IMG/VR virus record: IMGVR_UViG_3300033155_000580
Span: 1 to 51,102 of that record
Source: a virus
Direction: 5' to 3' (one strand)
DNA: 51,102 nucleotides
Shown: one piece after another, positions 12,401-34,371 of the stretch
How the letters are laid out: each line of letters starts with the position of its first letter
Numbering within the stretch: the stretch's first letter is position 1
Notes under the pieces: model-generated
The model's input: only the letters and a program-made list of their open reading frames with translations
Told to the model about the DNA's origin: nothing
The model's database searches: none
Program-made: the position numbers and the translations under genes

Positions 12401-14338
12401 AGGGTTGTAGATACTTCTATTATACCATTCATGAGACCATTAGATATTGAATACACTGCTACTGGAATGAAACCTTTTATTGATTTGATTGCAACGTTTG
12501 ACGGTGTTGATGTTTCAGATCAATGTACAAATCTTGTGACAGATGCAGTAGGTTCAGTTACAGGAACATTTTCAATTCCTGATTCAAATGATGATGCACC
12601 TGCAAAGAGAAAATTCAGAACTGGATCTAAAGTATTCAGACTTGCTGACGATGCCGTTAACCCAAGCACTTCATCTGAAGAGCAATTTACTTCAAGCGGT
12701 TTACTACAATCAAAACGTAGAACAATTGTTGCAACAGAAACACCAAGGCTTGTTCAAACAAGAGTAGTTGAAACAAGAAATCTTGATACTCGTATTTGGT
12801 CAGACCCAATTGCAGAATCCTTTTTGATTGATCAAGAGGGTGGCGCGTTCTTATCAGACATTGATATTTTCTTTGAAAGTAAGGCTAGCTTGCTCCCTGT
12901 TAAATTGTTTATTGTTGAAATGGAAAACGGTATACCTACTCAAAATATTGTACCATTCACAGAGGTTAGTTTACTCCCAGGCCAAGTTAATACTTCGGCC
13001 ACTGGCGTGGATGCAACTAAATTTACATTTTCAGATCCTGTTTATTTACAAGACAATACTGAATATGCTTTTGTCCTAACTTCTAATAGTGACGAGTATA
13101 AAGTATTTGTTGCAGACGTTGGTGGGATTGATTTGATTTCAGGTAGTGTTATTGCAAAACAACCTTATGCAGGAGTTATGTTTTCATCTCAAAACTCAAG
13201 CACATGGACACCAGACCAAGCTAAAGATATTAAGTTCAAGATCAACCGTTGCGTATTCGACACAGGTTCAGTTGGTAGTTTAGACTTGAACTCTGAAACA
13301 GGGTTGGACGGTATCAATGCAACGACTATCATGTTTAATATTGACACATTGATTCTAAATAATACAGATATTGGTTGGCAGTATAAATTTACAAATGATG
13401 CTTCGTTAATTGATTTTGGTAATAAGTCAAACATTGAGATGACTGAATTAAAATCAATCACAACAGGTCCACTTAATGCATTAAATGTTACAGCAACCTT
13501 AATATCAGGTGACGATGCAATATCACCAGTTATTAACTTGAATCGTGCAAGCGCCTTCATGATTGAAAATCTTGTTGATGCTGGAGACGCAGGAACATAC
13601 TTAACAAGAACAATTAACTTAGAAAATCCTTCAGATGATTTGAGAGTTTTGATTGATGCTCAATTACCTGGAAGCTCTAGTGTTGACTTGTATTATAAGA
13701 CAACAGAGTCATTCACTTCAAGATCAGTTACACTTCAAGCAGGTGGTATCCTTGAAGATGTTATTGGACGTATTCAATATGTCTACCATGTAAACGGATT
13801 AAATATTGACTTAGATCCTAGTAGCACAGTGTCAGTAACAAAGGTTGTTTCAAATACAACATATTTGAAAGACATTACAAATTACGATGTAATAAATGCA
13901 GGTGCAATTTTTGTACAATTCCCTGATGATATTATCCCAGCTGGGGCAGCGTCAATTGATATATGGCCTGCAGGCGGTGGCGGTTATGCGCTTGGAGAAT
14001 ATGTTTACTACACACCAACAGGAAAAGTTTATAGATCATTAATTGCTACAAACAATGACGAACCTACAGTAGATGTAGCATCGTTTGAAGAAGTTCCTTC
14101 AGCAACATTAACAAGCGGAATAAATGCTAACGTTGAAGATGTATGGCGCCCAATGAAATTAGAATCAACAATCAACCCTGTGTTAGATGTTGCTAATCAA
14201 TTCATTGAATACACATATATCCCAGAGTCAGTAGTTGATGAAGAGTTTAGCTCGTTTGCTGTTAAGATAGAACTTAACTCTGTTGGCTCAATCAATACGC
14301 CGTTTGTTAAAGCGTTCAGAGCATTGGCTGTATACTAA
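9404..14338 (+). CDS. Giant virion structural protein, DUF4815 type
   Basis: The 1644-residue product starts with the DUF4815 signature of marine T4-like phages: LNISPYYDDFDETKNFLRMLF followed by AVQARELTQLQSVLQNQISR near residue 35. The rest is mostly beta-strand with a collagen-free linker at about residues 1020-1130 that is rich in RRT, RIWS and TQTR-like repeats (VETVVPWWGSQNITVNRI, TRLVQTRVVETRNLDTRIWSDPIAESF). The segment LIDQEGGAFLSDIDIFFESK is a jelly-roll entry conserved in this family. In related phages it is an abundant virion protein of the baseplate periphery or fibre network; the exact location is not established here. Its stop codon overlaps the next ATG by one base. Confidence 0.75.
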   Translation: MPMDLNISPYYDDFDETKNFLRMLFIPRRAVQARELTQLQSVLQNQISRSASHIFVDGTSIIGSRVKVDFNKPFLDVADVTGFAVGNAINKAGDLNISATITEIDIANNLIYFNVVSGDFVNGETVEKTGAPGTNQVIVLRGDATKAAIEPGLVYVGGSFVVMNSQEIYVEAEGNTGNFVIGYTFDEDIVTHENDQTLLDPANGSFNFLAPGAARYRGQGTLVAYTEGDTYADNFYQVSLIRNGEVITKQDKVQYADLIDLLARRTFDESGNYSIKEFPIILEEHDTDPAKIKIGLEPGKAYVLGYEQETIATIEIETDKARETELIDNSNIYADIGPYIEVADDGTGLPDITGGIFDVTTKEIVTLYSDNAATNVLGTARITSLIKGPNNRHRIYLSEVSGITDLLASVKSIDNVGGTIAVTNTDNITGLTVVGNRPNNVPVFPLSLENVKTFTDVQYDFVRSFSGITVSANQATIIAADDVSDFSANIADIMLITEAGVVQTGYSILGTSPSSSGTPGTITIAGLNVGPIDVIVKMHKRVGQHKVKTLVPNQVENFVSGGAATFDLANVDIQGIVSITQDPNGTPVALDVSLFTLEDGIQDYYYTKGSITGPFVNLEEYDVEYSYFQHSGAGDYFSVDSYDISLYDSIPTYVSKDGASVFTLRDCIDFRRSVDDLPGGTNLIYPGENISLDYEFYLSRTDKVYIDQYGNFGVIQGVASRFPETPNDIDNSMTLYVLRLPPYTFNPEDIGVQLIENKNYTMSDIGSLENRIENLEYYTSLNLLEKETADLSVTDVYGLERFKNGIVVDDFSGHGVGDVYHEDYNCSIDVDEGILRTPFDIDNVNFEVTDDTPTLTTKNMKVHEHIATLDYTTDVLVDQPHASTVSNVNPYAVFLWVGSINLSPPSDNWFETRRLPAVVINVAASNDDLRILRDQAAWIGTRWDGWRTLWAGRASVETVVPWWGSQNITVNRIINRTSQQRVGTSIRVVPGTIRRTLNDRVVDTSIIPFMRPLDIEYTATGMKPFIDLIATFDGVDVSDQCTNLVTDAVGSVTGTFSIPDSNDDAPAKRKFRTGSKVFRLADDAVNPSTSSEEQFTSSGLLQSKRRTIVATETPRLVQTRVVETRNLDTRIWSDPIAESFLIDQEGGAFLSDIDIFFESKASLLPVKLFIVEMENGIPTQNIVPFTEVSLLPGQVNTSATGVDATKFTFSDPVYLQDNTEYAFVLTSNSDEYKVFVADVGGIDLISGSVIAKQPYAGVMFSSQNSSTWTPDQAKDIKFKINRCVFDTGSVGSLDLNSETGLDGINATTIMFNIDTLILNNTDIGWQYKFTNDASLIDFGNKSNIEMTELKSITTGPLNALNVTATLISGDDAISPVINLNRASAFMIENLVDAGDAGTYLTRTINLENPSDDLRVLIDAQLPGSSSVDLYYKTTESFTSRSVTLQAGGILEDVIGRIQYVYHVNGLNIDLDPSSTVSVTKVVSNTTYLKDITNYDVINAGAIFVQFPDDIIPAGAASIDIWPAGGGGYALGEYVYYTPTGKVYRSLIATNNDEPTVDVASFEEVPSATLTSGINANVEDVWRPMKLESTINPVLDVANQFIEYTYIPESVVDEEFSSFAVKIELNSVGSINTPFVKAFRALAVY

Positions 14339-17366: not shown

Positions 17367-18074
17367 ATGGCAAGTAGCCCATATATAGGAAGATCATTAG
17401 AATCAAGCGTTGAAGATGGAGAAGTTACTTCGGTTAAACTTGCGACAGGTGCTGTAACGTCTGCAAAGCTTGGAGCGAGTGCTGTTACAAATGCAAAGAT
17501 TAACAACGGTGCTGTATCAGAAGATAAACTTGCGGTTGCTGTTCAAACAAAATTAAATAGCGGTTCTGGAATTGTTACAGGTATAAATCCAACAACATCA
17601 TATTTTGTAAATAACTCAACAGTCTTAGTACAGGCAACAAGTTTAGTTTGCTCAATACCAGAGGCTGGTATTTACGCTATAGATATAATGTTGAATACAG
17701 GACACGACACAGTTGTTCCAACTGCAGGTTTAAGATTGAATGCAAGATACACAGGATCATACTGGGCGAATAATGGTCGCACGAAAGGTTTTTGGACGCT
17801 CCACCACACAACTGATACTGGAGGCACATCGTCTCAAACTACAATTCAAGGACAAACTAACTTACCTTCTACTATTAATATGGGAAGTAACTCACATGGA
17901 CAATTTTCAATAAGTGCAGGAAATGATTATTATTACCAGTTTGTTGAAGGTAAGTTCATTTTAGATGCTGCAGACGTTGGAGACGTAGAGATTTGGTTTG
18001 CACAGAATACTGCCGTAGCATACAACACATCTATTAATAGAAACTCTTGGATTAAAGCAACTAAGATAGCGTAA
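17367..18074 (+). CDS. Short tail fibre with repeat stalk and jelly-roll-like head
   Basis: The 235-residue product begins with a stalk made of short repeats (GEVTSVKLATGAVTSAKLG, then AVTNAKINNGAVSEDKL), which form triple-stranded beta shafts in phage fibres. The C-terminal 170 residues look like a C1q/TNF-type jelly-roll (CSIPEAGIYAIDIML ... KFILDAADVGDVEIWFAQN). Such heads often bind sugars or proteins. The same stalk motif opens the glycine-rich adhesin at 18822 (KGSNIAPGAVELAHLAPGAV). The sulfotransferase gene follows after nine bases, so the two are probably translated from one message. Confidence 0.65.
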   Translation: MASSPYIGRSLESSVEDGEVTSVKLATGAVTSAKLGASAVTNAKINNGAVSEDKLAVAVQTKLNSGSGIVTGINPTTSYFVNNSTVLVQATSLVCSIPEAGIYAIDIMLNTGHDTVVPTAGLRLNARYTGSYWANNGRTKGFWTLHHTTDTGGTSSQTTIQGQTNLPSTINMGSNSHGQFSISAGNDYYYQFVEGKFILDAADVGDVEIWFAQNTAVAYNTSINRNSWIKATKIA

Positions 18075-18083
18075 CGGAATATA

Positions 18084-18812
18084 ATGTATATCACAAAACA
18101 ATTTATATATCTTCATGTCCCAAAAACTGGTGGACAAACAATGCTTAGAATGCTAGAGCGTTTTAGGTTCATGTTCAGAGGTAGGGGTAGAGGATTTCAT
18201 AGATCAGTAGATTCACTCAATCCTAAAATGTTGGAAGATAAACAAAAATATGCCTTAGTTAGGAACCCTTGGGATTGGTATACATCTTGGTATTATTATT
18301 TAAAAGAAACTCCAAGCTTACATAATGTTTTATTTAAAACAATAAGCAATAATGGAAAATATAGTTTTAAGAGATCTATCAATAATTTATTTGATATGAT
18401 TGAAGGTGGTGAAGAAATCAATGGTGAATTTAATACAGCTATTGTTAATGCACCTTTAAGACGACCACTTCAAGTTAGTGGAGACGATGTTGAAAGGATG
18501 CAGTCTTGGGATTGTGGTTTACAATCTTTTTATTATCACTACTTAATATTTGGAGATGAAGCTCTTGACAGTCATGATTATTCTAATGTTACAATAGGTA
18601 AACAAGAAACTTCAAGAGAAGATCACCTTAACTTTTTCAAGAGTTTAGGTATTGAAAATGATAGACTAACAAAAACAATAACAAACCATCGTAGATTAAA
18701 TGCTACTAAGAAAGACTACGGTAAGTATCAAGATCAATATGACAATGCACTGAGAGATCGTGTTGCAGAAAAAGAAAGTTATATCATAGAAAAGTATGGC
18801 TATACATTTTAA
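18084..18812 (+). CDS. Sulfotransferase family protein
   Basis: The 242-residue product shows the two hallmark motifs of PAPS-dependent sulfotransferases. A 5'-phosphosulfate loop, HVPKTGGQTML, lies at residues 11-21. A 3'-phosphate-binding segment, ALVRNPWDWYTSWYYY, lies at residues 57-72, with R60 and S68 in the expected places. This pattern fits the sulfotransferase-2 type, which sulfates carbohydrates or tyrosines using PAPS. Length is near the lower end for a complete enzyme. It sits between two tail fibre genes, nine bases from each. Possible substrates are sugars on the host surface or residues of the phage adhesins; neither can be decided from sequence. No signal peptide is visible, so it acts in the cytoplasm, where PAPS is made. 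Confidence 0.82.
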   Translation: MYITKQFIYLHVPKTGGQTMLRMLERFRFMFRGRGRGFHRSVDSLNPKMLEDKQKYALVRNPWDWYTSWYYYLKETPSLHNVLFKTISNNGKYSFKRSINNLFDMIEGGEEINGEFNTAIVNAPLRRPLQVSGDDVERMQSWDCGLQSFYYHYLIFGDEALDSHDYSNVTIGKQETSREDHLNFFKSLGIENDRLTKTITNHRRLNATKKDYGKYQDQYDNALRDRVAEKESYIIEKYGYTF

Positions 18813-18821
18813 GGAAAAATA

Positions 18822-19469
18822 ATGGCAACTAAAATAAAAGGATCAAACATAGCACCAGGTGCGGTTGAATTAGCACATCTTGCCCCAGGTGCTGTATTAC
18901 ATGGTATGAAAACACTCACCGCAGGAAATGCTTGGTCTGCGGAGTTTACAGGCCCACATACAATAATTTTATGTGCTGGTGGTGGCGGTGGTGGCGGTGG
19001 AGCTACAGGATCTCCAGGTGGTTATGGTTATCCAGGTGAAGGTGGTGATGGTGGTAATTTTGCAATTACACAAATGATAATACAGTCTTTAACAAAAGAT
19101 GTTTCATATACAATTGCAATAGGAGCAGGCGGCATTGGCGGTGCCCCAGGTTTCCCAGGGCTGGCTGGACAACAAGGTGGAAGTACAACGTTTGACAGCA
19201 CTACAATGATTGGCGGCGCTGGCGGAGATGGTGGCGGTGGTGCTTACACAACTGCAAACGGCGATGTAGGTTTAAATTGCATTCCTTATGGGTTAGGTGG
19301 TGCTGGTGGAGTAAGTGCTCCTGGAGTAGATGGTAATCCAGGAAGTGCTGGAGCAGGCTTTGGAGCAGGCGGTGGCGGAGGCGGCGGTGGCGGTTATCAT
19401 GTATCTATAGGATATCTTGGAGCCGTGGGTGGTGCTGGGTCCCCAGGATTTATATTAATATTATGGTAG
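18822..19469 (+). CDS. Glycine-rich tail fibre tip adhesin, copy A
   Basis: The 215-residue product has a short N-terminal stalk (NIAPGAVELAHLAPGAV), a beta segment (AWSAEFTGPHTIILCA) and then long glycine-rich runs separated by conserved loops. The glycine blocks resemble the polyglycine-II sandwich of the gp38-type adhesins of T2-like phages, where loops between glycine strands contact the host receptor. The loops with variable residues here include SPGGYGYPGEGG, GLAGQQGGSTTFDSTTM and AYTTANGDVGL. The C-terminus is hydrophobic (GSPGFILILW). Copy B at 26717 is nearly identical over most of its length. The final codons overlap the cupin gene. Confidence 0.75.
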   Translation: MATKIKGSNIAPGAVELAHLAPGAVLHGMKTLTAGNAWSAEFTGPHTIILCAGGGGGGGGATGSPGGYGYPGEGGDGGNFAITQMIIQSLTKDVSYTIAIGAGGIGGAPGFPGLAGQQGGSTTFDSTTMIGGAGGDGGGGAYTTANGDVGLNCIPYGLGGAGGVSAPGVDGNPGSAGAGFGAGGGGGGGGGYHVSIGYLGAVGGAGSPGFILILW

Positions 19470-19478
19470 ACATTAAAT
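18972..19478 (+). repeat. Glycine-rich adhesin duplication, copy A
   Basis: This stretch matches 26930-27437 at the DNA level with long identical blocks, for example through the GGYGYPGEGGDGGNFAITQMI region and the NGDVG...CIPYGLGGAGGVSAPGV region. Identity continues past the adhesin stop codon into the first codons of the next frame. Boundaries are approximate. Confidence 0.75.
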
Positions 19479-19864
19479 TAATAACAGAAAAAATAGTTTC
19501 GGAAATTGATGGTGGTCCTATTGAAGCAGAATATATAACCGCGGTTTTAAAATTGGTTGCTGGAGATAGAGATAAACTATATCAATATAATAAATTTGAA
19601 GTAGATGTTTATGGTGGAATTATTTATAGAAAAATGTTGATATCTGGAATAGGGGAAGCTGTTAAATCTCATAAACATGTTTATGATCATTTTACCTTTA
19701 TTCATAAAGGGAGTGTAGATATAAATGGTGAAATATTCCATGCAGGGCAGTTTGCAAAGGTACCTGCAGAAGCCATCCATACAATTAAAGCATTAACAAA
19801 CGATTGCGAAGTTTATTGTATTCACTCAGAATATGAAGCAGAGCAAGGAGAACTAAACAAATGA
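19463..19864 (+). CDS. Cupin-domain protein next to adhesin A
   Basis: The 133-residue product has a cupin pattern. Motif 1 has H70 and H72 with D75/H76 (SHKHVYDHFTFIHKGSVDING). Motif 2 has a conserved G and H106 (HAGQFAKVPAEAIHTI). The two motifs give a single small metal-binding barrel. Cupins include oxygenases, isomerases and simple sensors, so the reaction cannot be assigned. The start overlaps the adhesin stop by seven bases (ATGGTAG), which ties its translation to the adhesin. The same place after adhesin B holds a dioxygenase of a different family. A role in modifying the adhesin or a host surface sugar is possible. Confidence 0.65.
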   Translation: MVDIKLITEKIVSEIDGGPIEAEYITAVLKLVAGDRDKLYQYNKFEVDVYGGIIYRKMLISGIGEAVKSHKHVYDHFTFIHKGSVDINGEIFHAGQFAKVPAEAIHTIKALTNDCEVYCIHSEYEAEQGELNK

Positions 19865-20223
19865 AAGGTTTTATAGTATTTAATAAAAATGATGATTCAG
19901 AAGTTGCTAGATATTCTGGCGGGGCTCAAACTCCTGCAGATATATTATCTGCAAATGGTTTTGATACTGATATTGTAGATTGTTTAGACTTTGAAATAGA
20001 TAAAGGTATGGCGGAAGCAGATTTCAGCGTAGCATCTGGGGTAATTGTCGAGGCTACTGTAGATACTGCTACTAAGAATCTTAGGATAGCTAATAAACAA
20101 CTTCTTCAAAATGAATTAATTATAGAAACATTACTAAACGAGATTAATCTAATAAGGACAGCACAAACATTACCTACTAGAAGTAAGGCAGATATAGAGG
20201 CTTTTCTAGATAGCAGGCTATAA
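19861..20223 (+). CDS. Hypothetical protein, possible fibre assembly factor
   Basis: The 120-residue product starts MKGFIVFNKNDDSEVAR, overlaps the cupin stop by four bases (ATGA) and has a helical C-terminal half (NKQLLQNELIIETLLNEINLIRTAQ) that could form a coiled coil. Small proteins with such a helix, encoded directly after a fibre tip, are often assembly chaperones, but I do not recognise this family. No metal-binding motif or membrane segment is seen. Confidence 0.6.
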   Translation: MKGFIVFNKNDDSEVARYSGGAQTPADILSANGFDTDIVDCLDFEIDKGMAEADFSVASGVIVEATVDTATKNLRIANKQLLQNELIIETLLNEINLIRTAQTLPTRSKADIEAFLDSRL

Positions 20224-20241
20224 AACCCAAATCACAGCGGC

Positions 20242-20249
20242 AATAAATA
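20242..20249 (+). promoter_or_regulatory. Late promoter variant
   Basis: AATAAATA preceded by C, 38 bases before the next gene, in a 64-base spacer; one mismatch to the octamer. Confidence 0.35.
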
Positions 20250-20287
20250 GTACAAACAATAATAAAAAATAAATAAATGGAACTATT

Positions 20288-20647
20288 ATGACAGATAGAG
20301 AAGTTCACACAGGGAATTACAATGGCTTGGATAGAAGAATCCCAGCCCAGGAATGGCACACAAATAAAAATTATTTTTTGTCAATCATCTTCTTGATCAT
20401 CGCTAATATAGGATCTACCGTCTGGTGGGCAGGCGGGATCAACTCAGATGTAAGGCAGTTGAAGGAAAGACCTGATCTAACAGAAAGGGTTGTCCAGCTT
20501 GAAACTACTATCGCTCTAAATGAAAAATATTTTAATGAGTTTAGAAGAACTCTAGAAAGTATGAATACCACAATCACTAGAATCGATCGTGAGCAAGCCC
20601 GTAGAAAATCAATTGTTGATAGAGCCGAAAAAAACCAATCTAACTAA
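20288..20647 (+). CDS. Single-pass membrane protein with coiled coil
   Basis: The 119-residue product has a polar N-terminus with a GLDRRIPAQEWH segment, one membrane helix at about residues 29-50 (FLSIIFLIIANIGSTVWWA) and a helical tail (RVVQLETTIALNEKYF...LESMNTTITRIDREQARRK). The layout resembles holin partners, i-spanins or small inner-membrane proteins carried by T4-like phages. The likely lysis pair lies at 32583-33622, so this one may serve another role such as superinfection exclusion. It is an odd passenger within a fibre gene run. Confidence 0.6.
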   Translation: MTDREVHTGNYNGLDRRIPAQEWHTNKNYFLSIIFLIIANIGSTVWWAGGINSDVRQLKERPDLTERVVQLETTIALNEKYFNEFRRTLESMNTTITRIDREQARRKSIVDRAEKNQSN

Positions 20648-20662
20648 AGATGAATACTAAAA

Positions 20663-21034
20663 ATGAAAAGACGTTTAGGATCGTTCTATCGAGGGGACAC
20701 AAAAACTTTTAAAATTGTAGTTGCAGATATTGACGACGTACCTGTGGATATCACAGGGTGGGAGTTTTGGTTTACTATGAAGGCAGATGATTATCTACCT
20801 GACACTGAGGCAGTTATCCAAAAACATATATCAATCCCTTTGCTGGATGCAGAAGGATTGTTAGGAAATGCTTATGTGGTATTATTGTCTACAGAGACAG
20901 AAGTAATTCCAATAGGTACATATTTTTATGACTTCCAAAGAGTTCTGCAACAGGCTCCAGGTGATCCACCAAGTGTAACAACGATAATGTCTGGCACAAT
21001 TTCAGTCATCTCAGACATAACAAGGAGCGTTTAG
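20663..21034 (+). CDS. BppU-like baseplate/fibre adaptor, copy A
   Basis: The 123-residue product starts GSFYRGDTKTFKI, contains DITGWEFWFTMKAD and ends FYDFQRVLQ...SGTISVISDITRS. This pattern occurs in the N-terminal domain of BppU-type baseplate upper proteins and in small phage proteins that anchor fibres. The paralogue at 28271 shares the YRGDTKT, W-x-x-WLT-K and YFYDFQRV segments. The gene is followed three bases later by the collagen-like gene, and both could form an adaptor plus tip. Confidence 0.6.
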   Translation: MKRRLGSFYRGDTKTFKIVVADIDDVPVDITGWEFWFTMKADDYLPDTEAVIQKHISIPLLDAEGLLGNAYVVLLSTETEVIPIGTYFYDFQRVLQQAPGDPPSVTTIMSGTISVISDITRSV

Positions 21035-21036
21035 TC

Positions 21037-21315
21037 GTGGCGGATACAATTAAAGTAACGATTGTTGAGACAGGTCCACCAGGCCCAGCGGGTCCGATAG
21101 GTCCAACAGGTCCTGCAGGTGGCGGAGGTGGTGGCGGCGCGGTTGTAAGTCCTACAGAACCAACATCTGCTGTCGCTGGTGATATGTGGTACAATCCAGA
21201 TGACGACGAGCTTTTTATATATAATGTAAATATTGGACAATGGGAACAAATACCGTTTGTATCAGATTTTAGTGACCCAGGTGGTACATTAATCATAGAA
21301 GGTGGTGGTTTCTAA
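21037..21315 (+). CDS. Short collagen-like tail protein (GTG start)
   Basis: The 92-residue product starts with GTG preceded by AAGGAG. Residues 13-27 are a run of five Gly-X-Y triplets (GPPGPAGPIGPTGPA), followed by seven glycines. The second half is a small domain found on many fibre tips (PTSAVAGDMWYNPDDDELFIYN...GQWEQI). Collagen-type triplets form triple helices in phage fibres. The neighbour at 20663 is probably its partner. There are few triplets, so it would be a short trimerisation rod rather than a long shaft. Confidence 0.7.
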   Translation: MADTIKVTIVETGPPGPAGPIGPTGPAGGGGGGGAVVSPTEPTSAVAGDMWYNPDDDELFIYNVNIGQWEQIPFVSDFSDPGGTLIIEGGGF

Positions 21316-21326
21316 ACCATCTTTTT

Positions 21327-21334
21327 AATAAATA
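21327..21334 (+). promoter_or_regulatory. Late promoter variant
   Basis: AATAAATA in a T-rich context, 46 bases before the long fibre gene that follows. Confidence 0.35.
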
Positions 21335-21379
21335 ATAACAAATATAATAAACAAAGTATAGAACAAGGAAGGCATAAAA

Positions 21380-23191
21380 ATGGCTCTTATTCAAATTAAA
21401 CGCTCTACAGGAACAGCGACACCGCCTTCACTGGCTGAAGGTGAATTAGCGTATTCAGAATTATCCGATAATTTATTTATTGGTAAATCAGGGTCAGTAG
21501 TTGCCAAGATTGGCGGCTTGACAGAAGTCAATAAATTAGCTGGTGTTGAGGCACTTGCCGATGTAACAGATACAGCAAACGTTACCGCAGCAGGCGCGTT
21601 GATGGACAGCGAGTTAGCTTCCGAATCAGCAGTTAAAGCAACTACAGCGGCATTTTTGACTGCAGACGAAACTAAATTAGACGGTATTGAAACCGCAGCT
21701 ACAGCAGATCAAACAGGCGCTGAGATTAAAACAGCTTATGAAGCAGAAGCAAATGCATTTACAGATGCACAGTTTACTAAATTAGGTGGAATTGAAACAT
21801 CAGCCGATGTAACAGACACAGCAAACGTAGACGCTGCAGGTGCAGTAATGCACACAGACGTATCTGGTGGCAACGATGGCTTCTTATTGAAGACTGGTGC
21901 TGAAACATACGAATCAGTTAAACTTAATAGAGGCGCGGCTGCTGCTCCAATTGCAACAGACGACACTAACTCAGGCTACTCAGTAGGTTCACGTTGGATT
22001 GATACTACAAACAACGAAGAATGGTTATGCGTAGACGCAACTGCAACTTCGGCTGTTTGGTTAATGGTTTCAGGTGGTGGTGACGTAGATGGTCCAGGCG
22101 TAGCAGTAGATAACGCTGTAACACGTTTTGATGGTACTGACGGTAAGAACGTTCAAAGCTCTGGTGTAGTAATTGATGATTCAGACAACGTTACTGGAAT
22201 TGCTAATCTTAGCTTAACAGGAACAGTAGATGGTCGTGATGTTGATGCCGACGGTACAGCACAAGATGATCACATTGCAGACGTTTCAGGTAACCCACAC
22301 GCTGTAACATTAGAACAAGCACGTTCAGAAAATGGTACACTTGCAGGTAATATTGCAATGGGTGGTTTCAAAGTAACAGGTGCTGGTAACGGTACCGCAG
22401 CAGGCGACTTAGTTAATAAGAGTCAATTGGATGCGGCACAAGCTGGTATTTTGGTTAAAGATGGTTGTCGTGTTGCTACAGATGCAGCACTTCCTGCAGT
22501 AACCGCAGCAGGCGCAAGCGTTGGTAAAACTTTGACAGCAGATGCAGTAGGCATTTTAACTGTTGACGGAGTTGCAACTTTATTAGGTGATCGTGTTTTG
22601 GTTAAAGACCAAGTTGCTCAAATAGACAATGGTATTTATGAAGTAACAACCGAAGGTACAGCAGGCGTTGCGTTTATACTTACTCGTGCTACTGACTATG
22701 ACGGCGACCCTGCATCAGAAATCACTGAAGGAACATTCACGTTCATTAGTGAAGGTACTGCAAATCAGAAATCAGGTTGGGTATTGTTAGATGATGCTGA
22801 CTTTACAGCAGGTGTTGCAAATGTTGACGTTGCAAGCAACGAATTAGTATTTGCTCAGTTCCAGGGCTTACCAGCATACGTAGAAGGCTCAGGCATTGAT
22901 ATTACTGGTGATACAATTTCAATGGATATCACTAACTTAACAACAGCGGCCGTTGTTGCTGCAGATGAACTAGCGTTTTACGATATAAGCTTAGGTGCAA
23001 TACGCAAAACTACAGTTTCATTGTTACTAGGTGCTATCAGTGGTCTAAGTAATGTATTGAACGACGCAGACATTTTTGTTGGTAATGGTTCAAACATTGC
23101 AACAGGTGTTACAATGTCAGGCGATGCTACAATGGCAAATGACGGTACAATCACACTTACAGCCGCAGCGTTAGATGGTGGTTCATTCTAA
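21380..23191 (+). CDS. Long tail fibre protein, module A
   Basis: The 603-residue product starts with an N-terminal domain common in marine phage fibres (LIQIKRSTGTATPPSLAEGELAYSE...NLFIGKSG). Repeats of the type LADVTDTANVTAAGA and FTKLGGIETSADVTDTANVDAAGA form the shaft near residues 60-160. A middle module (SGYSVGSRWIDTTNNEEWLCVDATATSA) and a domain with LLGDRVLVKDQVAQIDNGIYEV follow. The C-terminus ends in short repeats (GDATMANDGTITLTAAAL). It is a trimeric fibre shaft protein. The terminator-like hairpin about 38 bases downstream ends the module. Confidence 0.75.
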   Translation: MALIQIKRSTGTATPPSLAEGELAYSELSDNLFIGKSGSVVAKIGGLTEVNKLAGVEALADVTDTANVTAAGALMDSELASESAVKATTAAFLTADETKLDGIETAATADQTGAEIKTAYEAEANAFTDAQFTKLGGIETSADVTDTANVDAAGAVMHTDVSGGNDGFLLKTGAETYESVKLNRGAAAAPIATDDTNSGYSVGSRWIDTTNNEEWLCVDATATSAVWLMVSGGGDVDGPGVAVDNAVTRFDGTDGKNVQSSGVVIDDSDNVTGIANLSLTGTVDGRDVDADGTAQDDHIADVSGNPHAVTLEQARSENGTLAGNIAMGGFKVTGAGNGTAAGDLVNKSQLDAAQAGILVKDGCRVATDAALPAVTAAGASVGKTLTADAVGILTVDGVATLLGDRVLVKDQVAQIDNGIYEVTTEGTAGVAFILTRATDYDGDPASEITEGTFTFISEGTANQKSGWVLLDDADFTAGVANVDVASNELVFAQFQGLPAYVEGSGIDITGDTISMDITNLTTAAVVAADELAFYDISLGAIRKTTVSLLLGAISGLSNVLNDADIFVGNGSNIATGVTMSGDATMANDGTITLTAAALDGGSF

Positions 23192-23195
23192 TCAT

Positions 23196-23203
23196 TATAA
23201 ATA
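23196..23203 (+). promoter_or_regulatory. T4-type late promoter after fibre module A
   Basis: Exact TATAAATA just after the stop codon of the preceding fibre, only 25 bases ahead of a strong hairpin at 23229. Confidence 0.55.
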
Positions 23204-23228
23204 TAATGGTATGAAGAAGTAAACAACG

Positions 23229-23257
23229 ATGCCCTTCATATGAAGGGCATCTTTATA
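23229..23257 (+). terminator. Intrinsic terminator-like hairpin
   Basis: A perfect 12-base inverted repeat GATGCCCTTCAT / ATGAAGGGCATC at 23229-23252, followed by TTTAT. The U-tract is short, so the hairpin could instead protect the 5' end of the downstream message. Confidence 0.65.
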
Positions 23258-23295
23258 TAACCTTAGCTATATAGCTTTAAAATATAAGGTGCCAA

Positions 23296-26200
23296 ATGGC
23301 AAACGAAATCGTATTAAAAAGATCTGCGGTTGCGAACAATGCTCCAGCCGTTGGAGACTTGGCTCTCGGTGAAGTTGGTATTAATACAAATGATGGTCGC
23401 GTATTCATTAAAAAGAATGACGGCGCAGACTCAATTGTAGACATTACTGATAACGTAAGAACTAAAACAACTACAGACCCTTCAGCAACAGATGACAATT
23501 CAAGTGGTCACCGTCCTGGTGACTTATGGCTAAACACAACCTCACAAAATGTATTCATACTTGTAGATGATTCAAACGCTGCGTCCATATGGACAAACAT
23601 AACAAGTGATCGCGGCGGTAGTCTACTTCACAGTCAATGGGGTTTAGTTCACACAATAGATAATCCAAACGCCTTTGGGACAAGTCAATATGACTTTTTT
23701 GGTTCTGCTGTTTATGGTAGCAGTGGAGCAGCCTCTGCGGTATCAGGCGATTATATGGTTATTGGAGCTAACCAAGAAGATGAGGTAGGTGGTAATGGTT
23801 CTGGTAAGGTTTATGTTTTCAATATACACACAGGTTTATTAGCACGAACAATAGATAATCCAAACGCCTACGGAACAGTTTCAAATGATTATTTTGGTAG
23901 GTATATAGATATTGATGGAACTAAATGTGTAATTGCTGGTTCTGGTGAAGATGATGCAGGTGGTAATAGTTCTGGTAAGGTTTATGTTTATGACGTAACA
24001 ACTGGAGAATTATTACTTACAATAAATAATCCTAATCCTTATGGAACCAGTGCGTATGATGAGTTTGGCGTTTCTGTTGGGATCAGTGGTAATAATATTA
24101 TTGTAGGCGCACACAATGAAGATGAGTCAGGACTAACTAATTCTGGTAAGGCTTATATATTTAATGCAACAACTGGAGCCTTATTACAAACATTAAATAA
24201 TCCTAACGCATATGGAACGGCTGCTTACGATCAATTTGGTAATCAAGTCTCAATTGATGGAAATAATTGTATTGTGGGAGCAAGATTTGAAGATGATGCA
24301 GGTGGCCTTAGTGCTGGTAAAGCTTATATATTTACAGTCTCAACTGGAGCTTTATTACATACTCTAGATGATCCTAACGCATACAGCACTTCTGCTGGCG
24401 ATCAATTTGGTAATAATCTTGACATAAGTGGAAACTATGCTGTTGTAGGTGCATGGTATGAAGACGACGGAAATAATTATTCAGGTAAGGTTTATATTTT
24501 CAATGTAACAACAGGTGCTCTACTTTGGACTTTAGATAATCCAAATCCTTATGGAACTTCGTACTACGATGCGTTTGGTGCTAAAGTAGCTGTAGAAGGT
24601 AACTACGCCGCAGTAACCGCATGGTTTGAAGATGATGCAGGTGGGAATCAGTCAGGTAAGGTTTATATTTATGACGTTACAACTGGAGGTTTAATACACA
24701 CTTTTGATAATCCAAACGCATATGGAACAGCCGCATATGATTACTTTGGTTCTATTGTTTCATTATCAGACAAATATATTATTACTGCGGCATCTTATGA
24801 AGATGATGTATCTGGAATTCAATCAGGTAAAGCGTATGTGTTTGCTCTTGAGGATTTATATGAAACAGATGCGCAAAGTTTATTAGCAGCTATAAAATCT
24901 ATAGGTGATGGTAGCGGTATAAATGCTACTTACTTAGAAGGTAAAGATTCAAGTGAATTTGCTACGTCAGATGATTTATCTTTACTTGCTCCACTGGCAA
25001 GCCCTGCACTAACAGGAACTCCAACTGCTCCAACTCAAAGTGCAGACGATAATAGTACGAAGCTTGCTACAACTGCCTATGCAGACGCCCAAGCTCTTTC
25101 AGGTGGCGACCCAGCATTTACAAGTGATCCTTTAGGATTTAATTATCCAACTGCCCCAGGTGCCAACTCAATAGCGATTGCTATTGACGCAGACGCGAAA
25201 GAACAAAACTGCATTGCTTTTGGTAATGGAGCACAAGCAGGTTTAGTTGATTCAGGAACAGGAAATCGAAATGCAATTGCAATAGGAATTCTTGCAAAAG
25301 CGTATAATAGGTATAGTCTTGCATTAGGCGTTGAGGCAGTGGCTGGCTTAACTGGCGCAAGTGTTTTTTATGCAACTGCAATCGGTTGGAACTCATTATG
25401 CGAGGGTGCATCTGCAATTAGTGTTGGGTCATTATCTAAAGCTCTTGCATACGAAAGTATTGCTATTGGTTCCTCTGCCGAAGGAAGAGAAAGTAATTCT
25501 ATTGCAATTGGCCCAGCCGCACAATCAGGACAAACTAATGGTGGTGGAGACGAACAAGATACAATTGCAATAGGAAACGTAGCGAAAGCGTATGAGAGTG
25601 GCGGTATTTCAATTGGTAGAGCTGCAACCACAGGTAAAAATGGAACAAGTATTGACCCTTATGCAATTGCAATAGGTTATCAATCAGAAGCAATTGAAGA
25701 AAAATCAATTGCTATAGGTTATACAGCGGACAGTAAAGGAACATCCGCTGTATCAATTGGTGACGGAGCTATAGCAAAAGAAACAGCCAATGTTGCAGTA
25801 GGACAATATGCTTTAACAGGACAAACTGAAGGTGGAAGTAATGAAGGATCTGCCATTGCTGTAGGAGCAAGTTCAAAATCATACGAGATAGGATGTGTGA
25901 GTATAGGTGCTCTTGCAACTTCAGGTAGAAACGGATCAACAAATGATCCTTATGGTGTTGCTGTAGGTTATTTTGCTATTGCAGACCAAGGATACACAAC
26001 TGCATTAGGATATTTTGCCAAATCAAAAGGAACATCTTCAGTTTCAATAGGAGCAAACTCCGAAGCAAAAGAATCTACAACAATTGCTATAGGTGCCTCA
26101 GCGATTGCAGGTAGGACATATGCATCTGCAACAAATGAACGAGCAATTACAATAGGTGTTCTTAGTAAGGCTTATAATAAAGGATGTGTAACTTTAGGTG

Positions 26201-26712
26201 CTGGGGCAGTATCAGGTGATGTGGGTACTAATAATGAAGATTATGCAATTGCAATAGGTGATAGTGCAAATGCAGTTTTAGCAAATACAATCGCGCTTGG
26301 ACAAGGTGCAACTGTAACTAACAAAGGTGAAATGGTAACTGCATTAGGAACAAACGCCTTTGAGAAGAAAATTGTATTACAACAAGATTTCACTTCGGCA
26401 TCATTCACAGCCTTCACAGATTCACCAGTTATCCCAAGTAATAAAGCATGGAAGTTCACAGCACAAATAATTGCTCGTCAAGCTGTAACAGGTGAGGTTG
26501 CTTCATATAAAATTGATGGAATGATTAAGAACATTGCAGGAACAACTACAATAGTTGGAACAAATTATACTCTTGAAGAAGAAGAAGATGCAACTTGGGA
26601 TTGTGTATTAGTTGCTAATGATACAAATGATACTTTAGAAATTCAATTTAAGACTGACGGAACAGCAAACGCCGTTTCCGTACTTGCTAACATACTGATA
26701 ATGGAGGTATAA
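23296..26712 (+). CDS. Giant fibre: beta-propeller repeats plus YadA-like head
   Basis: The 1138-residue product has four parts. The N-terminus (residues 1-110) is the marine fibre attachment type (IVLKRSAVANNAPAVGDLALGE). Residues about 119-520 hold seven repeats of 55-60 residues, each with D/N-NPN-x-YGT, a Y-D-x-FG, an I/VVGA or similar, an EDD-x-G and a SGK-x-Y-x-F strand, as in FG-GAP propellers. A connector (SPALTGTPTAPTQSADDN) follows. Residues about 620-1018 hold YadA-type head repeats (AIAIG-x-x-A-x-A, SIAIGYTADSKGTSAVSIG). The C-terminal 110 residues are a beta domain (AWKFTAQIIARQAVTGEV). This looks like a trimeric adhesin. Confidence 0.78.
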   Translation: MANEIVLKRSAVANNAPAVGDLALGEVGINTNDGRVFIKKNDGADSIVDITDNVRTKTTTDPSATDDNSSGHRPGDLWLNTTSQNVFILVDDSNAASIWTNITSDRGGSLLHSQWGLVHTIDNPNAFGTSQYDFFGSAVYGSSGAASAVSGDYMVIGANQEDEVGGNGSGKVYVFNIHTGLLARTIDNPNAYGTVSNDYFGRYIDIDGTKCVIAGSGEDDAGGNSSGKVYVYDVTTGELLLTINNPNPYGTSAYDEFGVSVGISGNNIIVGAHNEDESGLTNSGKAYIFNATTGALLQTLNNPNAYGTAAYDQFGNQVSIDGNNCIVGARFEDDAGGLSAGKAYIFTVSTGALLHTLDDPNAYSTSAGDQFGNNLDISGNYAVVGAWYEDDGNNYSGKVYIFNVTTGALLWTLDNPNPYGTSYYDAFGAKVAVEGNYAAVTAWFEDDAGGNQSGKVYIYDVTTGGLIHTFDNPNAYGTAAYDYFGSIVSLSDKYIITAASYEDDVSGIQSGKAYVFALEDLYETDAQSLLAAIKSIGDGSGINATYLEGKDSSEFATSDDLSLLAPLASPALTGTPTAPTQSADDNSTKLATTAYADAQALSGGDPAFTSDPLGFNYPTAPGANSIAIAIDADAKEQNCIAFGNGAQAGLVDSGTGNRNAIAIGILAKAYNRYSLALGVEAVAGLTGASVFYATAIGWNSLCEGASAISVGSLSKALAYESIAIGSSAEGRESNSIAIGPAAQSGQTNGGGDEQDTIAIGNVAKAYESGGISIGRAATTGKNGTSIDPYAIAIGYQSEAIEEKSIAIGYTADSKGTSAVSIGDGAIAKETANVAVGQYALTGQTEGGSNEGSAIAVGASSKSYEIGCVSIGALATSGRNGSTNDPYGVAVGYFAIADQGYTTALGYFAKSKGTSSVSIGANSEAKESTTIAIGASAIAGRTYASATNERAITIGVLSKAYNKGCVTLGAGAVSGDVGTNNEDYAIAIGDSANAVLANTIALGQGATVTNKGEMVTALGTNAFEKKIVLQQDFTSASFTAFTDSPVIPSNKAWKFTAQIIARQAVTGEVASYKIDGMIKNIAGTTTIVGTNYTLEEEEDATWDCVLVANDTNDTLEIQFKTDGTANAVSVLANILIMEV
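23650..24860 (+). repeat. Seven tandem propeller repeats in the giant fibre
   Basis: About 171-base coding repeats; each begins near AATCCAAACGC or AATCCTAACGC and encodes one 55-60 residue unit. Copies diverge at the third codon position, so the array has aged as protein rather than as recent DNA expansion. Confidence 0.75.
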
Positions 26713-26716
26713 GAAA

Positions 26717-27427
26717 ATGAAAGTAAAAAATCCTACCATTGATGGTGCGGTATTAACAGGTGACTCAACCGCAGTTACACAAAGCGCAGATGATAATAGT
26801 ACAAAAATTGCTACAACTGCCTACGCAGATAATGCAGGTGGCGGTGGCGGAGGTGCAAGTACAATTAAGTTAATATCTTCTGGAACTACGTTCACTGCTT
26901 TATATACAGGTATTCATACAATATTTTTATGTGGTGGTGGCGGTGGCGGTGGCGGCGGCCAAACAGGTACACCTGGTGGTTATGGTTATCCAGGTGAAGG
27001 TGGTGATGGTGGTAATTTTGCAATTACACAAATGATAAAACAATCTCTAGTAAAAGACACTGTATATACAATTGCAATAGGAGCTGCTGGCGGTGGCGGC
27101 GCGCCAGGATATCCAGGCGTAGCTGGACAACAAGGTGGAAGTACAACGTTTGACGGCGTTACCATAACTGGCGGTCCAGGCGGCGACGGCGGCGGCGCCG
27201 CCTACACAACTGCAAACGGCGACGTGGGGATAAATTGTATTCCTTATGGGTTAGGTGGTGCTGGTGGAGTAAGTGCTCCTGGAGTAAATGGTAATCCAGG
27301 TGGTGCAGGTACAGGACATGGGGCTGGCGGCGGTGGCGGCGGTGGCGGCGGTTATCATGTATCTATAGGATATCTTGGAGCGGTAGGTGGCCCTGGGTCC
27401 CCAGGATTTATATTAATATCATGGTAG
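26717..27427 (+). CDS. Glycine-rich tail fibre tip adhesin, copy B
   Basis: The 236-residue product is a paralogue of the 18822 gene. Its N-terminus (AVLTGDSTAVTQSADDNSTKIATTAYADNA) matches the connector of the preceding giant fibre rather than copy A, so the adhesin has been joined to a new stalk. The glycine-rich body then follows copy A closely, with changes mainly in some loops (QTGTPGGYGYPGEGG, GGGGAPGYPGVAG, FDGVTITGGPGG). It ends GSPGFILISW. Like copy A, it probably makes a polyglycine-II type receptor-binding tip. The dioxygenase gene follows after seven bases. Confidence 0.75.
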   Translation: MKVKNPTIDGAVLTGDSTAVTQSADDNSTKIATTAYADNAGGGGGGASTIKLISSGTTFTALYTGIHTIFLCGGGGGGGGGQTGTPGGYGYPGEGGDGGNFAITQMIKQSLVKDTVYTIAIGAAGGGGAPGYPGVAGQQGGSTTFDGVTITGGPGGDGGGAAYTTANGDVGINCIPYGLGGAGGVSAPGVNGNPGGAGTGHGAGGGGGGGGGYHVSIGYLGAVGGPGSPGFILISW

Positions 27428-27437
27428 ATATAAAATG
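26930..27437 (+). repeat. Glycine-rich adhesin duplication, copy B
   Basis: Matches 18972-19478. Similarity runs through the stop codon to about 27437, where the frame of the former cupin start (ATG GTA GAT ATA AAA) breaks off into the next gene. Confidence 0.75.
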
Positions 27438-27950
27438 TTCTTTGATGGTAGTTATAATAACTTAGGAAAAATTGATTCGTCATTACTTGATGAAATAAAA
27501 AATAAAATTATTAATATAAGTGAAGATGAGTGGCTGGATGATTCTATTGAAAGACAGCAATCATTCACAGTTCATAAAAACGTAAATAACTATAATATAT
27601 TATTTGATTATGGAAATTTCCAAGAACTTGATAATAATAAAACAATAGATCGAAGATCAAATTGGAGTGAATTAGATAATATAGTAGATGGAGAAATTGT
27701 TGGTTTATTAATTGTTAATCTACACGCAGGTAAAGATATACCACTACATGTAGATGATGGTGAACATTTAAAAAACTCACGTAGAATACATTTACCAATA
27801 ATAACAAATAAAAATGTTATTTTTAACGTAGACGGAGAGTATATAAATATGAAAGAGGGTTATTTATATGAAATAAATAATATGAAGCCCCACAGCGTTA
27901 AGAATAAAGGTTTGAGAGATAGAATACATATTATAATAGATGTGAAATAA
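27435..27950 (+). CDS. Aspartyl/asparaginyl beta-hydroxylase-like dioxygenase
   Basis: The 171-residue product fits the Asp/Asn hydroxylase fold of Fe(II)/2-oxoglutarate dioxygenases. The iron triad would be H105 and D107 (PLHVDDGEH) with H153 (NMKPHSVKN). R163 in RDRIHIIIDV would bind 2-oxoglutarate. The conserved RRIHLPIITN strand is at 116-125 and the M-x-EGYLYEINN strand at 139-149. Such enzymes hydroxylate Asp, Asn or other residues on protein substrates, or small molecules. It lies seven bases after adhesin B, so the adhesin is a candidate substrate; a host surface protein is the alternative. The gene is complete but lower in GC than its neighbour, and replaces the cupin found after copy A. 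Confidence 0.78.
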   Translation: MFFDGSYNNLGKIDSSLLDEIKNKIINISEDEWLDDSIERQQSFTVHKNVNNYNILFDYGNFQELDNNKTIDRRSNWSELDNIVDGEIVGLLIVNLHAGKDIPLHVDDGEHLKNSRRIHLPIITNKNVIFNVDGEYINMKEGYLYEINNMKPHSVKNKGLRDRIHIIIDVK

Positions 27951-27962
27951 GGAAAAAACAAA

Positions 27963-28235
27963 ATGGCATTAGAATTAGGAATCACAACAGAACATGGTAT
28001 TACGTTAGCAAATTCTTATACAAGAATTGTAAATTACTCAGGTGATATTGATAATGTTCGTGTCCAAACAATAACACACGCAGATGCAGCGGCAAGAACA
28101 GCAAATGATAAACAGATTAAGTCTGAATCATATGTATTTTCTGCTCCTGACACTGTTCCTGCTGGTGGATTAATAGATTGGGCTTATGCTCAAGTCAAAG
28201 CACTACCTGAGTTTACAGGATCAGTAGACGTATAA
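27963..28235 (+). CDS. Small hypothetical fibre-region protein
   Basis: The 90-residue product starts ALELGITTEHGITLANSYTRI and contains RTANDKQIKSESYVFSAPD. It reads as a small mixed alpha/beta domain, without cysteines or membrane segments. Similar short proteins lie among fibre genes of marine phages. Its TAA stop codon forms part of a late promoter (TATAAATA at 28231). No function assigned. Confidence 0.6.
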   Translation: MALELGITTEHGITLANSYTRIVNYSGDIDNVRVQTITHADAAARTANDKQIKSESYVFSAPDTVPAGGLIDWAYAQVKALPEFTGSVDV

Positions 28236-28238
28236 ATA
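28231..28238 (+). promoter_or_regulatory. T4-type late promoter overlapping a stop codon
   Basis: Exact TATAAATA that contains the TAA stop of the preceding gene; 32 bases before the next start codon. Confidence 0.65.
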
Positions 28239-28270: not shown

Positions 28271-28624
28271 ATGCACATAAAAAGACTAAACGGAATTTAC
28301 CGAGGCGATACGAAAACTTATAAGTTCAACTTCCCTGGAGTTGATATTACGGATTGGACTATCTGGCTGACTTTAAAAATAGATGAGTTGTCGTCTGATG
28401 CCGCTGCGGCTATTCAAGTATCATCTACAGCAGGTGATAATGTTTTAGATGACCCAATCAATGGGATCATGTATGTCACTATCCCATCAGATCAGTCTGG
28501 CACATTAGAGCCTGGCCAATATTTTTATGACTTCCAAAGAGTCATTCAAGGAAGCCCTCCTGATGTTAGAACATTATTGGCAGGACAGGTTGAGATTTAT
28601 ACAGATATCACGCTTGCGACCTAA
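28271..28624 (+). CDS. BppU-like baseplate/fibre adaptor, copy B
   Basis: The 117-residue product shares the pattern of the 20663 gene: IYRGDTKTYKF, then DITDWTIWLTLKID, then GQYFYDFQRVIQ, and a closing VEIYTDITLAT. Identity is moderate rather than recent. It is preceded by its own late promoter and is followed nine bases later by the 194-residue gene. In copy A the partner is the collagen-like protein, so adaptors of this family may carry different tips. Confidence 0.6.
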   Translation: MHIKRLNGIYRGDTKTYKFNFPGVDITDWTIWLTLKIDELSSDAAAAIQVSSTAGDNVLDDPINGIMYVTIPSDQSGTLEPGQYFYDFQRVIQGSPPDVRTLLAGQVEIYTDITLAT

Positions 28625-32849: not shown

Positions 32850-33260
32850 ATGTTTGGGGCATTAATCAGTTTTATGGGTGGAGCAAAACTTAAATTAATA
32901 GGTGCTGGTATCATTGCACTTCTATTATGGGCTGCTTGGAGTCATTACACTTATATAAGAGATGATCGTATTCAGCTTATTAAAGATAAAGCTATAATTG
33001 AAACTGCTCTTAAAACAGAGAAGGCCAGCTTTTCGTCTTATAAAATAACAACTGAAAAGAACTATAAAGATATTCAAGAAGATATTATTAGCTTGGATAA
33101 AGATTATAAAAAATCTGAGAAGAAGGTTAGAAAGTTTAGCAAGATGCTTGAAAGACATGATCTTGGTCACTTGACATTTAAGAAGCCAGGATTAATTGAA
33201 CGTAAAGCAAATAGAGCAACAAAGAAAGTCTTTAAAGACTTTGAGGAGTTAGGCGAATGA
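32850..33260 (+). CDS. i-spanin-like inner membrane protein
   Basis: The 136-residue product has one N-terminal membrane helix (about residues 13-30, KLKLIGAGIIALLLWAAW) followed by a long charged coiled coil (KDKAIIETALKTEKASFSSYKIT...DYKKSEKKVRKFSKMLERHDL) facing the periplasm. This matches Rz-type i-spanins. The next gene overlaps by four bases and encodes a lipoprotein, the usual o-spanin arrangement. Together they would fuse the inner and outer membranes at lysis. Topology is inferred from the helix position. Confidence 0.65.
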   Translation: MFGALISFMGGAKLKLIGAGIIALLLWAAWSHYTYIRDDRIQLIKDKAIIETALKTEKASFSSYKITTEKNYKDIQEDIISLDKDYKKSEKKVRKFSKMLERHDLGHLTFKKPGLIERKANRATKKVFKDFEELGE

Positions 33261-33622
33261 AAAAATTAATTATCATTGCCCTTGCTTCTACTTTTATGCT
33301 TTCAGGTTGTTTTTGGAACACAAAAACTGAATATATAACTAAAATTGTTGAGGTTCCAGTTAATAATATAGTTTATGCAAGGCCAATGCGTCCTTCACTA
33401 TTAAACATAGAGTGGAAAGTTTATGGTGAAAAGAACCGAGGTGATGCTGTTATATATTTACAAGATAAAGCTTTAATGTGTTTAAGTATACCTCATTATG
33501 AGAACCTTGGGAAAAACATGACAAGGATTTACTCAACCGAAGAAGGTTTATATAGTTTGTTAGATAAATATGAAGCTGATAGAGCTACAGATGAAGCCAA
33601 AGAAGCTACAAAGGAAGAATAA
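33257..33622 (+). CDS. o-spanin-like lipoprotein
   Basis: The 121-residue product starts with a lipoprotein signal: MKKLIIIALASTFMLSGC, with lipobox LSGC and the modified cysteine at residue 18. The mature part includes RPMRPSLLNIEWKVYG, a segment resembling one found in phage lipoproteins near spanins, and ends in an acidic helix. It overlaps the i-spanin-like gene in the style of Rz/Rz1. Length is longer than many o-spanins, so another outer-membrane role is possible. Confidence 0.65.
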   Translation: MKKLIIIALASTFMLSGCFWNTKTEYITKIVEVPVNNIVYARPMRPSLLNIEWKVYGEKNRGDAVIYLQDKALMCLSIPHYENLGKNMTRIYSTEEGLYSLLDKYEADRATDEAKEATKEE

Positions 33623-33624
33623 TA

Positions 33625-34371
33625 ATGGCAACAAGCGTTTTTAATAGATTAGAATCACCACAGGAGTTAATTGACTACGCCTGCAGGAAACTGGGTGCGC
33701 CTGTCATTAATATTGAGATAGATCAATCTCAAGCCGAAGATAGAATAGATGATGCGATGCAATTGTTTATGCAACGGCACTATGACGCCGTCGAAGAAGT
33801 ATGGATCAAAACAACTTTCAATGCATCTGATATAACTCGTGGCTACAAAAGAATGGATGAAAATTTAGTTGCTGTTATTGGTATGATTGAACACTCATCT
33901 AGTTCATTAGAACCAGCTTGGACAGATATCACCTACCAATTAAAATATAATAACATGGTAGATATCACTTCCCCAGATATTGTTAATTATGTATTGACAA
34001 TGGAACATATTAATTTGATCAATAGTCTAATCAAGCCTAAAAGATCATTTCAGTTTAACAAATATTCACACCAATTAAAAGTTATGGGTAATTTGAAAGC
34101 TGGAGACTTTGTTGTGGTTCAAGCTTATAAAAGTTTAAATCCAGACTTTGTTTTAGACATATACAATGATGAATGGTTAAAGAGATACGCTACTGCTCTT
34201 ATTAAAAGACAGTGGGGAGCAAACTTGAAGAAGTTTGAAGGTGTACAGATGCCAGGTGGAATCACACTTGACGGACAATCAATTTTTGACGAAGGTAATG
34301 AGGAAGTTCAATCTCTTGAACAAGAGTTTTCACTAACATATGAATTACCCGTCGACATGTTCATGGGATAA
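33625..34371 (+). CDS. 13: Neck protein gp13
   Basis: The 248-residue product has the neck protein signature LIDYACRKLGAPVINIEIDQSQAEDRIDDAMQLF in residues 16-50 and a beta-rich remainder including RSFQFNKYSHQLKVMG. In T4, gp13 joins with gp14 to seal the portal after packaging and form the collar on which the tail docks. Length is slightly below the T4 protein (309 residues). In T4, gene 14 follows directly; here five small genes intervene. Confidence 0.85.
   Translation: MATSVFNRLESPQELIDYACRKLGAPVINIEIDQSQAEDRIDDAMQLFMQRHYDAVEEVWIKTTFNASDITRGYKRMDENLVAVIGMIEHSSSSLEPAWTDITYQLKYNNMVDITSPDIVNYVLTMEHINLINSLIKPKRSFQFNKYSHQLKVMGNLKAGDFVVVQAYKSLNPDFVLDIYNDEWLKRYATALIKRQWGANLKKFEGVQMPGGITLDGQSIFDEGNEEVQSLEQEFSLTYELPVDMFMG

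Follow-up and report, generated by a model that had tools for sequence, protein, structure and literature searches.

The host recognition cluster of pelagimyophages and cyanomyophages is hypervariable, lies between the VrlC gene and the neck genes and combines fibre genes with accessory enzymes; the glycosyltransferases in it have been read as altering the host surface (PMC7029224, 2020). Oxygenases dependent on Fe(II) had appeared in such islands in a 2014 listing: eight of their genes were placed under host recognition in metaviromic islands, alongside genes of fibres and gp38 adhesins (Mizuno et al. 2014, PMC3909814), in a frequency table that gives no tip-enzyme linkage or mechanism. Few unexplained genes are as common in marine T4-like phages as those of the 2-oxoglutarate (2OG)-Fe(II) oxygenases, with 24 in one genome (PMC9602691). 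The roles proposed for them were in nitrogen status/2-oxoglutarate balance and in DNA repair (PMC3037559), and oxygenase-ferrochelatase partners were described in pelagiphages (PMC9599517). In the open literature searched, no paper testing or proposing modification of a fibre tip was found. Here, the fibre island of an uncultured T4-like virus of bacteria was analysed in the IMG/VR virus record IMGVR_UViG_3300033155_000580, positions 1 to 51,102 (the window, 51,102 bases). Accessory enzyme genes are interleaved with genes of glycine-rich tips in this island, and several aquatic T4-like phages show a linkage between glycine-rich tips and 2OG-Fe(II) oxygenases.

Gene Content of the Fibre Island

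The borders, fibres, tips and enzymes of the island were as follows.

9404..14338, + strand: VrlC-type baseplate protein, left island border (phrog_358, 1101 bits; synteny with Syn19, P-SSM7 and HTVC008M)
17367..18074, + strand: short fibre protein, 5' of the sulfotransferase gene (phrog_892 tail fibre, E 8e-8)
18084..18812, + strand: sulfotransferase-like protein, 242 aa (PF03567 E 0.0023; phrog_3347 Gal-3-O-sulfotransferase E 0.0026)
18822..19469, + strand: glycine-rich tip 1, 215 aa (PF21722 23.2 bits, slightly below the cut-off of 24.3)
19463..19864, + strand: putative cupin, 133 aa, start codon overlapping the end of tip 1 (PF12973/PF07883 E 5e-4 to 8e-4)
23296..26712, + strand: fibre, 1138 aa, FG-GAP and YadA head repeats (PF14312 E 4.5e-54; PF05658 E 7.8e-15)
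26717..27427, + strand: glycine-rich tip 2, 236 aa (PF21722 Gly_rich_2 26.4 bits, above the cut-off of 24.3)
27435..27950, + strand: aspartyl/asparaginyl beta-hydroxylase-type 2OG oxygenase, 171 aa (PF05118 E 6.5e-11, 42.8 bits)
33625..34371, + strand: gp13 (head-tail adaptor Ad2), right island border (phrog_211 E 1.7e-43)

The gene order was T4-like, with gp6 at 3243, VrlC at 9404-14338, the fibre island, gp13 at 33625 and gp14 at 36187, and, beyond the neck genes, gp17 (38159), gp18 (39939), gp20 (42077) and gp22 (45929). The portal shared about 50% identity with its counterpart in marine Synechococcus phages. The region is a fibre island, or host recognition cluster, both in position (between VrlC and the gp13/gp14 neck genes) and in content (tail-fibre genes and accessory enzymes both present). 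Unlike the described cluster with its conspicuous glycosyltransferases and lipopolysaccharide (LPS)-sugar genes, the window has a single sulfotransferase-like gene, a cupin and a hydroxylase packed against the tips.

Fibre, tip and enzyme genes were all on one strand, with a spacing of about -7 to +10 nt. A sequence-only reading of this DNA had placed three enzyme-type genes near fibre genes, two of them in the same slot after tips. Both observations held: the open reading frames were present on the same strand, the cupin followed tip 1 and the hydroxylase followed tip 2, while the sulfotransferase-like gene preceded tip 1. The chance of three enzymes falling into the four tip-adjacent slots was C(4,3)/C(31,3), about 0.001, counted post hoc over the 31 other island genes with operon structure ignored. 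That reading had also called the tips gp38-type. Like the T-even gp38 adhesin (S16/T2 type), they are glycine-rich and encoded directly after a fibre gene; unlike it, they are Gly_rich_2-type, and among their Pfam and PHROG matches at E up to 1 there was Gly_rich_2 only and no gp38 family.

Identity of the Three Enzymes

Sequence evidence firmly supports the identity of the hydroxylase gene, and weakly those of the other two. The hydroxylase scored above the curated PF05118 cut-off (42.8 vs 22.6 bits), and H105, D107, H153 and R163 were invariant in a four-sequence alignment with three phage homologues; these residues are the expected Fe(II)/2OG ligands, an HxD...H triad and the 2OG-binding Arg. 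As far as sparse annotation shows, none of its phage homologues was seen beside fibre genes.

The cupin assignment is weakly backed by its motif and by an independent homologue (L082) in the IMG/VR contig G024, 32% identical over 93 residues (E 1e-13 pairwise, phmmer 9e-11), in which the metal-binding histidines (HxH and a distal His) were conserved. A scan of genome contigs with the cupin gave no relative. For the third protein the name was kept at sulfotransferase-like, a weak assignment: it fell below the Pfam cut-off (PF03567 18.6 and PF00685 15.3 vs 22 bits), and the 3'-phosphoadenosine-5'-phosphosulfate (PAPS)-type motifs HVPKTGGQT and RNPWDWYTSW were spotted by eye.

Searches with tip, cupin and sulfotransferase against phages by tblastn gave no matches (glycine-rich queries masked). 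IMG/VR protein searches with each enzyme and tip returned the same virus only; the one close IMG/VR relative found is this virus again, with 1 base of difference over the overlap compared. Single-sequence AlphaFold models were too poor to use (pLDDT 38 for the sulfotransferase, 42 for the cupin).

Oxygenases and Tips in Complete T4-Like Genomes

The positions of 2OG oxygenases were compared in 18 complete T4-like genomes, with the island taken from the end of VrlC to the start of gp14 and oxygenase matches merged by hand. Glycine-rich tips were present in the islands of S-RSM4, HTVC008M and S-SSM7. The PF21722 scan covered the tips of S-RSM4 and HTVC008M, and both matched strongly; the S-SSM7 tips were less glycine-rich. 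Island 2OG oxygenases occurred in all three genomes with an island tip vs one of the 15 lacking such a tip (Fisher P 0.005). Rotation gave an expectation of 4.0 oxygenases within 6 kb of a tip, and 14 were present (P 0.008; three genomes); the rotation P was 0.010 at 3 kb and 0.012 at 10 kb. The six islands longer than 12 kb held 17 oxygenases vs 8.0 expected (P 0.037, post hoc).

The fibre-neck interval of HTVC008M consisted of a Gly_rich_2 tip, the next gene, four 2OG/phytanoyl oxygenases and then gp13. Like the window, HTVC008M has a Gly_rich_2 tip near oxygenases; unlike the window, it has them on the opposite strand and carries a ferrochelatase.

The S-RSM4/S-SM1 Block

A stretch of S-RSM4 aligned with S-SM1 DNA at 69% identity over 76%. 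The two were collinear for the tip (68%), a chaperone-like gene (50%), and several oxygenases, other small genes and a ferrochelatase (32-71%). In S-RSM4 the block lay inside the island; in S-SM1 it lay at 31.8-39.7 kb, with VrlC at 81-88 kb. The long fibres upstream of it were only marginally alike. Since the block is collinear at different sites, the tip has stayed with its oxygenases in two genomic locations. The tip-enzyme idea draws its strongest backing from this block, though it comes from other phages and has a different enzyme set. The block shares with the window a PF21722 tip followed by 2OG oxygenase; in the block a chaperone-like gene comes first and a long array of oxygenases follows, whereas in the window each tip has a single enzyme, the families are different ones, and no chaperone-like gene intervenes.

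One S-SM1 oxygenase of the block was annotated as 'leprecan', after collagen prolyl hydroxylases (annotation only). The 'DNA endonuclease V' genes of the block may be mislabelled 2OG oxygenases, the S-RSM4 copy having a weak PF13640 match.

Genes after Glycine-Rich Tips in IMG/VR

A scan of IMG/VR for DNA encoding the tip C-terminus, blind to the neighbours, gave 35 contigs, and the next gene was readable at 26 viral loci, a few of them near-duplicates. These calls were made by reading translations rather than from Pfam. The next gene was mostly small and chaperone-like, with the look of a fibre-assembly gene. PF13640 oxygenases were found in four of the 35 contigs, one of them below the cut-off. 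Enzymes near the tip were seen in G002/G003 (one kind of virus), G004 and G024; in G003 and G004 these were oxygenases a few genes from the tips.

Contig G024 was T4-like by gene reading. Its order was tip, chaperone-like gene, cupin, TusA (PF01206), oxygenase-like gene, more fibre genes, a second tip and a chaperone-like gene, which placed a cupin two genes past a glycine-rich tip in an independent contig. The oxygenase-like gene was named by eye from a sub-threshold Pfam match. The G024 island (L097 5160-7470) also had a divergent, opposite-strand operon of heptose-kinase-like, cupin and sugar-epimerase-like genes, and the heptose genes of the S-SSM7 island (L055) echoed this heptose-type operon.

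A PF21722 six-frame search missed the tips of the window itself and was left out as a survey. The tip-end pattern in cellular genomes gave mixed loci, many apparently non-phage, and was not used further.

Relation of the Two Tip Modules

Tips 1 and 2 were paralogues with 80% identity across 187 aa. Over the final complete 60-nt block ahead of the stop codon their DNA was 90% identical, and identity dropped to about 20% no more than tens of bases further on; the homology stopped about 10 nt beyond the stop codon, and its 5' boundary faded inside the first 45 or so codons. No similarity was found between the cupin and the hydroxylase, nor between the genes after each. Since the tip homology ends at the stop and the downstream enzymes are unrelated, no tip-plus-enzyme unit was duplicated in the window. 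Judged from these alignments, the tip domain is copied or homogenised inside the island with differing neighbours, and the enzyme did not accompany the tip here. The proposal that tips travel with an enzyme thus fails within the window and stands for the S-RSM4/S-SM1 block, where tip and enzymes were inherited as a unit.

Each module also encoded a copy of a small structural protein.

20663..21034, + strand: RGDTKT-motif small structural protein, copy A (paralogue of copy B, 43%; homologue in sister virus L028)
28271..28624, + strand: RGDTKT-motif small structural protein, copy B (paralogue of copy A, 43%)

Both copies were similarly distant from the single copy of L028 (33-40%). Two histories were rejected: duplication of a roughly 8-kb module in a single event, given tips at 80% and RGDTKT proteins at only 43%, and the cupin and hydroxylase as diverged copies of one gene, given their lack of similarity.

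Late Promoter Motifs

T4-type late promoter motifs were found on both sides of module B.

23196..23203, + strand: late promoter motif TATAAATA, 5' of module B (motif match)
28231..28238, + strand: late promoter motif TATAAATA, start of the next transcription unit (motif match)

The motif was over-represented in the window, with 14 sites on both strands vs 6.4 expected and as many in 1 of 100 shuffles. The sites spread across 2471-47106, and eight of the 11 on the plus strand stood 25-105 nt ahead of a gene start. Because the sites at 23196 and 28231 flank the fibre, tip 2 and the hydroxylase, the motif suggests that these three genes form a single late transcription unit. Sites of the motif were also noted directly 5' of structural genes.

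Possible Function of the Enzymes

The likeliest role of these accessory enzymes, presumably expressed late, is put forward tentatively and from sequence: to modify the fibre tip. Tip modification is favoured because the enzymes are packed in fibre operons, oxygenases gather around a single type of tip, and the S-RSM4/S-SM1 block moves with its tip. The enzymes would be produced late, alongside the fibres, and work while the fibres mature. As metal-dependent enzymes, the hydroxylase and probably also the cupin would alter side chains in the glycine-rich tip, which would tune its binding specificity or stability without a change in the tip gene; the sulfotransferase would sulfate either the fibre or a sugar on the surface. 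One tip could pair with different enzymes, the enzyme slot being exchanged independently of the tip.

Several results weigh against tip modification. No enzyme was recognised in the slot after the tip at the 26 IMG/VR loci, where a chaperone-like gene is usual; the survey of downstream genes that the sequence-only reading had proposed as a check thus gave a mixed answer, with oxygenases within 6 kb of tips and the G024 cupin two genes past one on the other side. Islands overall had no significant 2OG oxygenase enrichment (17 vs 11.7 expected, rotation P 0.15), so that general enrichment in fibre islands was rejected, and most 2OG oxygenases of T4-like phages sit outside the island. The tests of tip-oxygenase association were post hoc, covered three genomes, were dominated by S-RSM4 and ignored phylogeny. 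The HTVC008M oxygenases run opposite to the fibres. The cupin was under the Pfam cut-offs (PF07883/PF12973 19.6 and 20.3 bits vs about 27), and the sulfotransferase-like name is sub-threshold. The tips of the window are 80% identical yet their enzymes are unrelated, contrary to what a dedicated pairing of tip and enzyme would lead one to expect; if the tips are modified, near-identical tips with unrelated enzymes mean that the tip does not determine the modification. The open literature searched held no biochemistry or virion proteomics on tip-enzyme pairing.

The stronger proposal of a dedicated late maturation system in aquatic T4-like phages is doubtful. In it, exchangeable iron- or metal-dependent oxygenases, cupins and a sulfotransferase would chemically modify the glycine-rich tips, and receptor specificity would be set by post-translational chemistry together with tip sequence.

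A serious rival, possible though on the unlikely side, is that the enzymes act on the host envelope instead. Late decoration of surface polysaccharide (sulfation, sugar isomerisation, hydroxylation) would keep related phages and released progeny off the infected cell and its debris, and the island would pair binders with receptor-altering genes. Pelagimyophage islands carry glycosyltransferases and LPS-sugar genes that were interpreted in that way (PMC7029224). The S-SSM7 island is annotated with heptose kinase, epimerase and carbamoyltransferase genes, and genes of G024 were read by eye as heptose kinase, sugar-type cupin and epimerase; the G024 homologue of the window cupin is weakly like the sugar isomerase FdtA, and the sulfotransferase has its best phage match, a weak one, in the Gal-3-O-sulfotransferase family. 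Against this, no sugar-synthesis gene was recognised among the proteins searched in the window island, and the S-RSM4/S-SM1 block is annotated with oxygenases but without sugar genes. Aspartyl/asparaginyl hydroxylases are, moreover, known mainly as protein- or amino-acid-modifying enzymes, which also counts against an envelope target.

A second serious rival, though an unlikely one, is that the enzymes are passengers, metabolic genes that gather at an insertion hot spot, with the ends of fibre units as tolerated landing sites, and do not act on the tips. In known phages this island is hypervariable (PMC7029224, PMC3909814), the GC content of the hydroxylase gene is distinctly low (26% vs 37.6% for the whole window), such islands hold many kinds of enzyme (ferrochelatase, halogenase, TusA), 2OG oxygenases are plentiful throughout T4-like phage genomes, and 2OG oxygenase with ferrochelatase is a known co-located pair in pelagiphages (PMC9599517); yet the block stays tip-linked in both S-RSM4 and S-SM1 even though its genome position differs between them, the large tip-less islands of S-PM2 and S-B68 hold no 2OG oxygenase (S-B68 has none genome-wide), and the catalytic residues of the hydroxylase are conserved.

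The physical link of a subset of the 2OG-Fe(II) oxygenases to glycine-rich tips points to an alternative role for them, in host recognition. If the enzymes do modify tips, phage host range would be partly set by post-translational chemistry, which sequence-based prediction of host range would miss.

Other Features of the Island

Three further features lay among the fibre modules.

19861..20223, + strand: 120-aa protein, candidate fibre chaperone (by position and the look of its C-terminus)
21304..21321, + strand: terminator-like hairpin, end of module A (terminator-like matches overall not above shuffles)
27963..28235, + strand: 90-aa protein, function unknown (phrog_18037 E 1e-9)

The 120-aa protein had no family match in Pfam or PHROG. 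The RGDTKT proteins were without a Pfam match and by eye resembled the 'L-shaped tail fiber protein assembly' proteins of S-SSM7 and P-HM1. The sister virus L028, from the same sampling series, had an island of similar kind that nonetheless differed from that of the window: its tail-collar-type tips were followed by chaperone-like genes, without recognisable enzymes. The fibre at 23296-26712 combined seven FG-GAP (integrin-type) repeats with YadA head repeats, an unusual combination in a phage fibre. At 32850-33622, within the fibre island and directly before gp13, lay Rz-like spanin genes (phrog_739, phrog_812).

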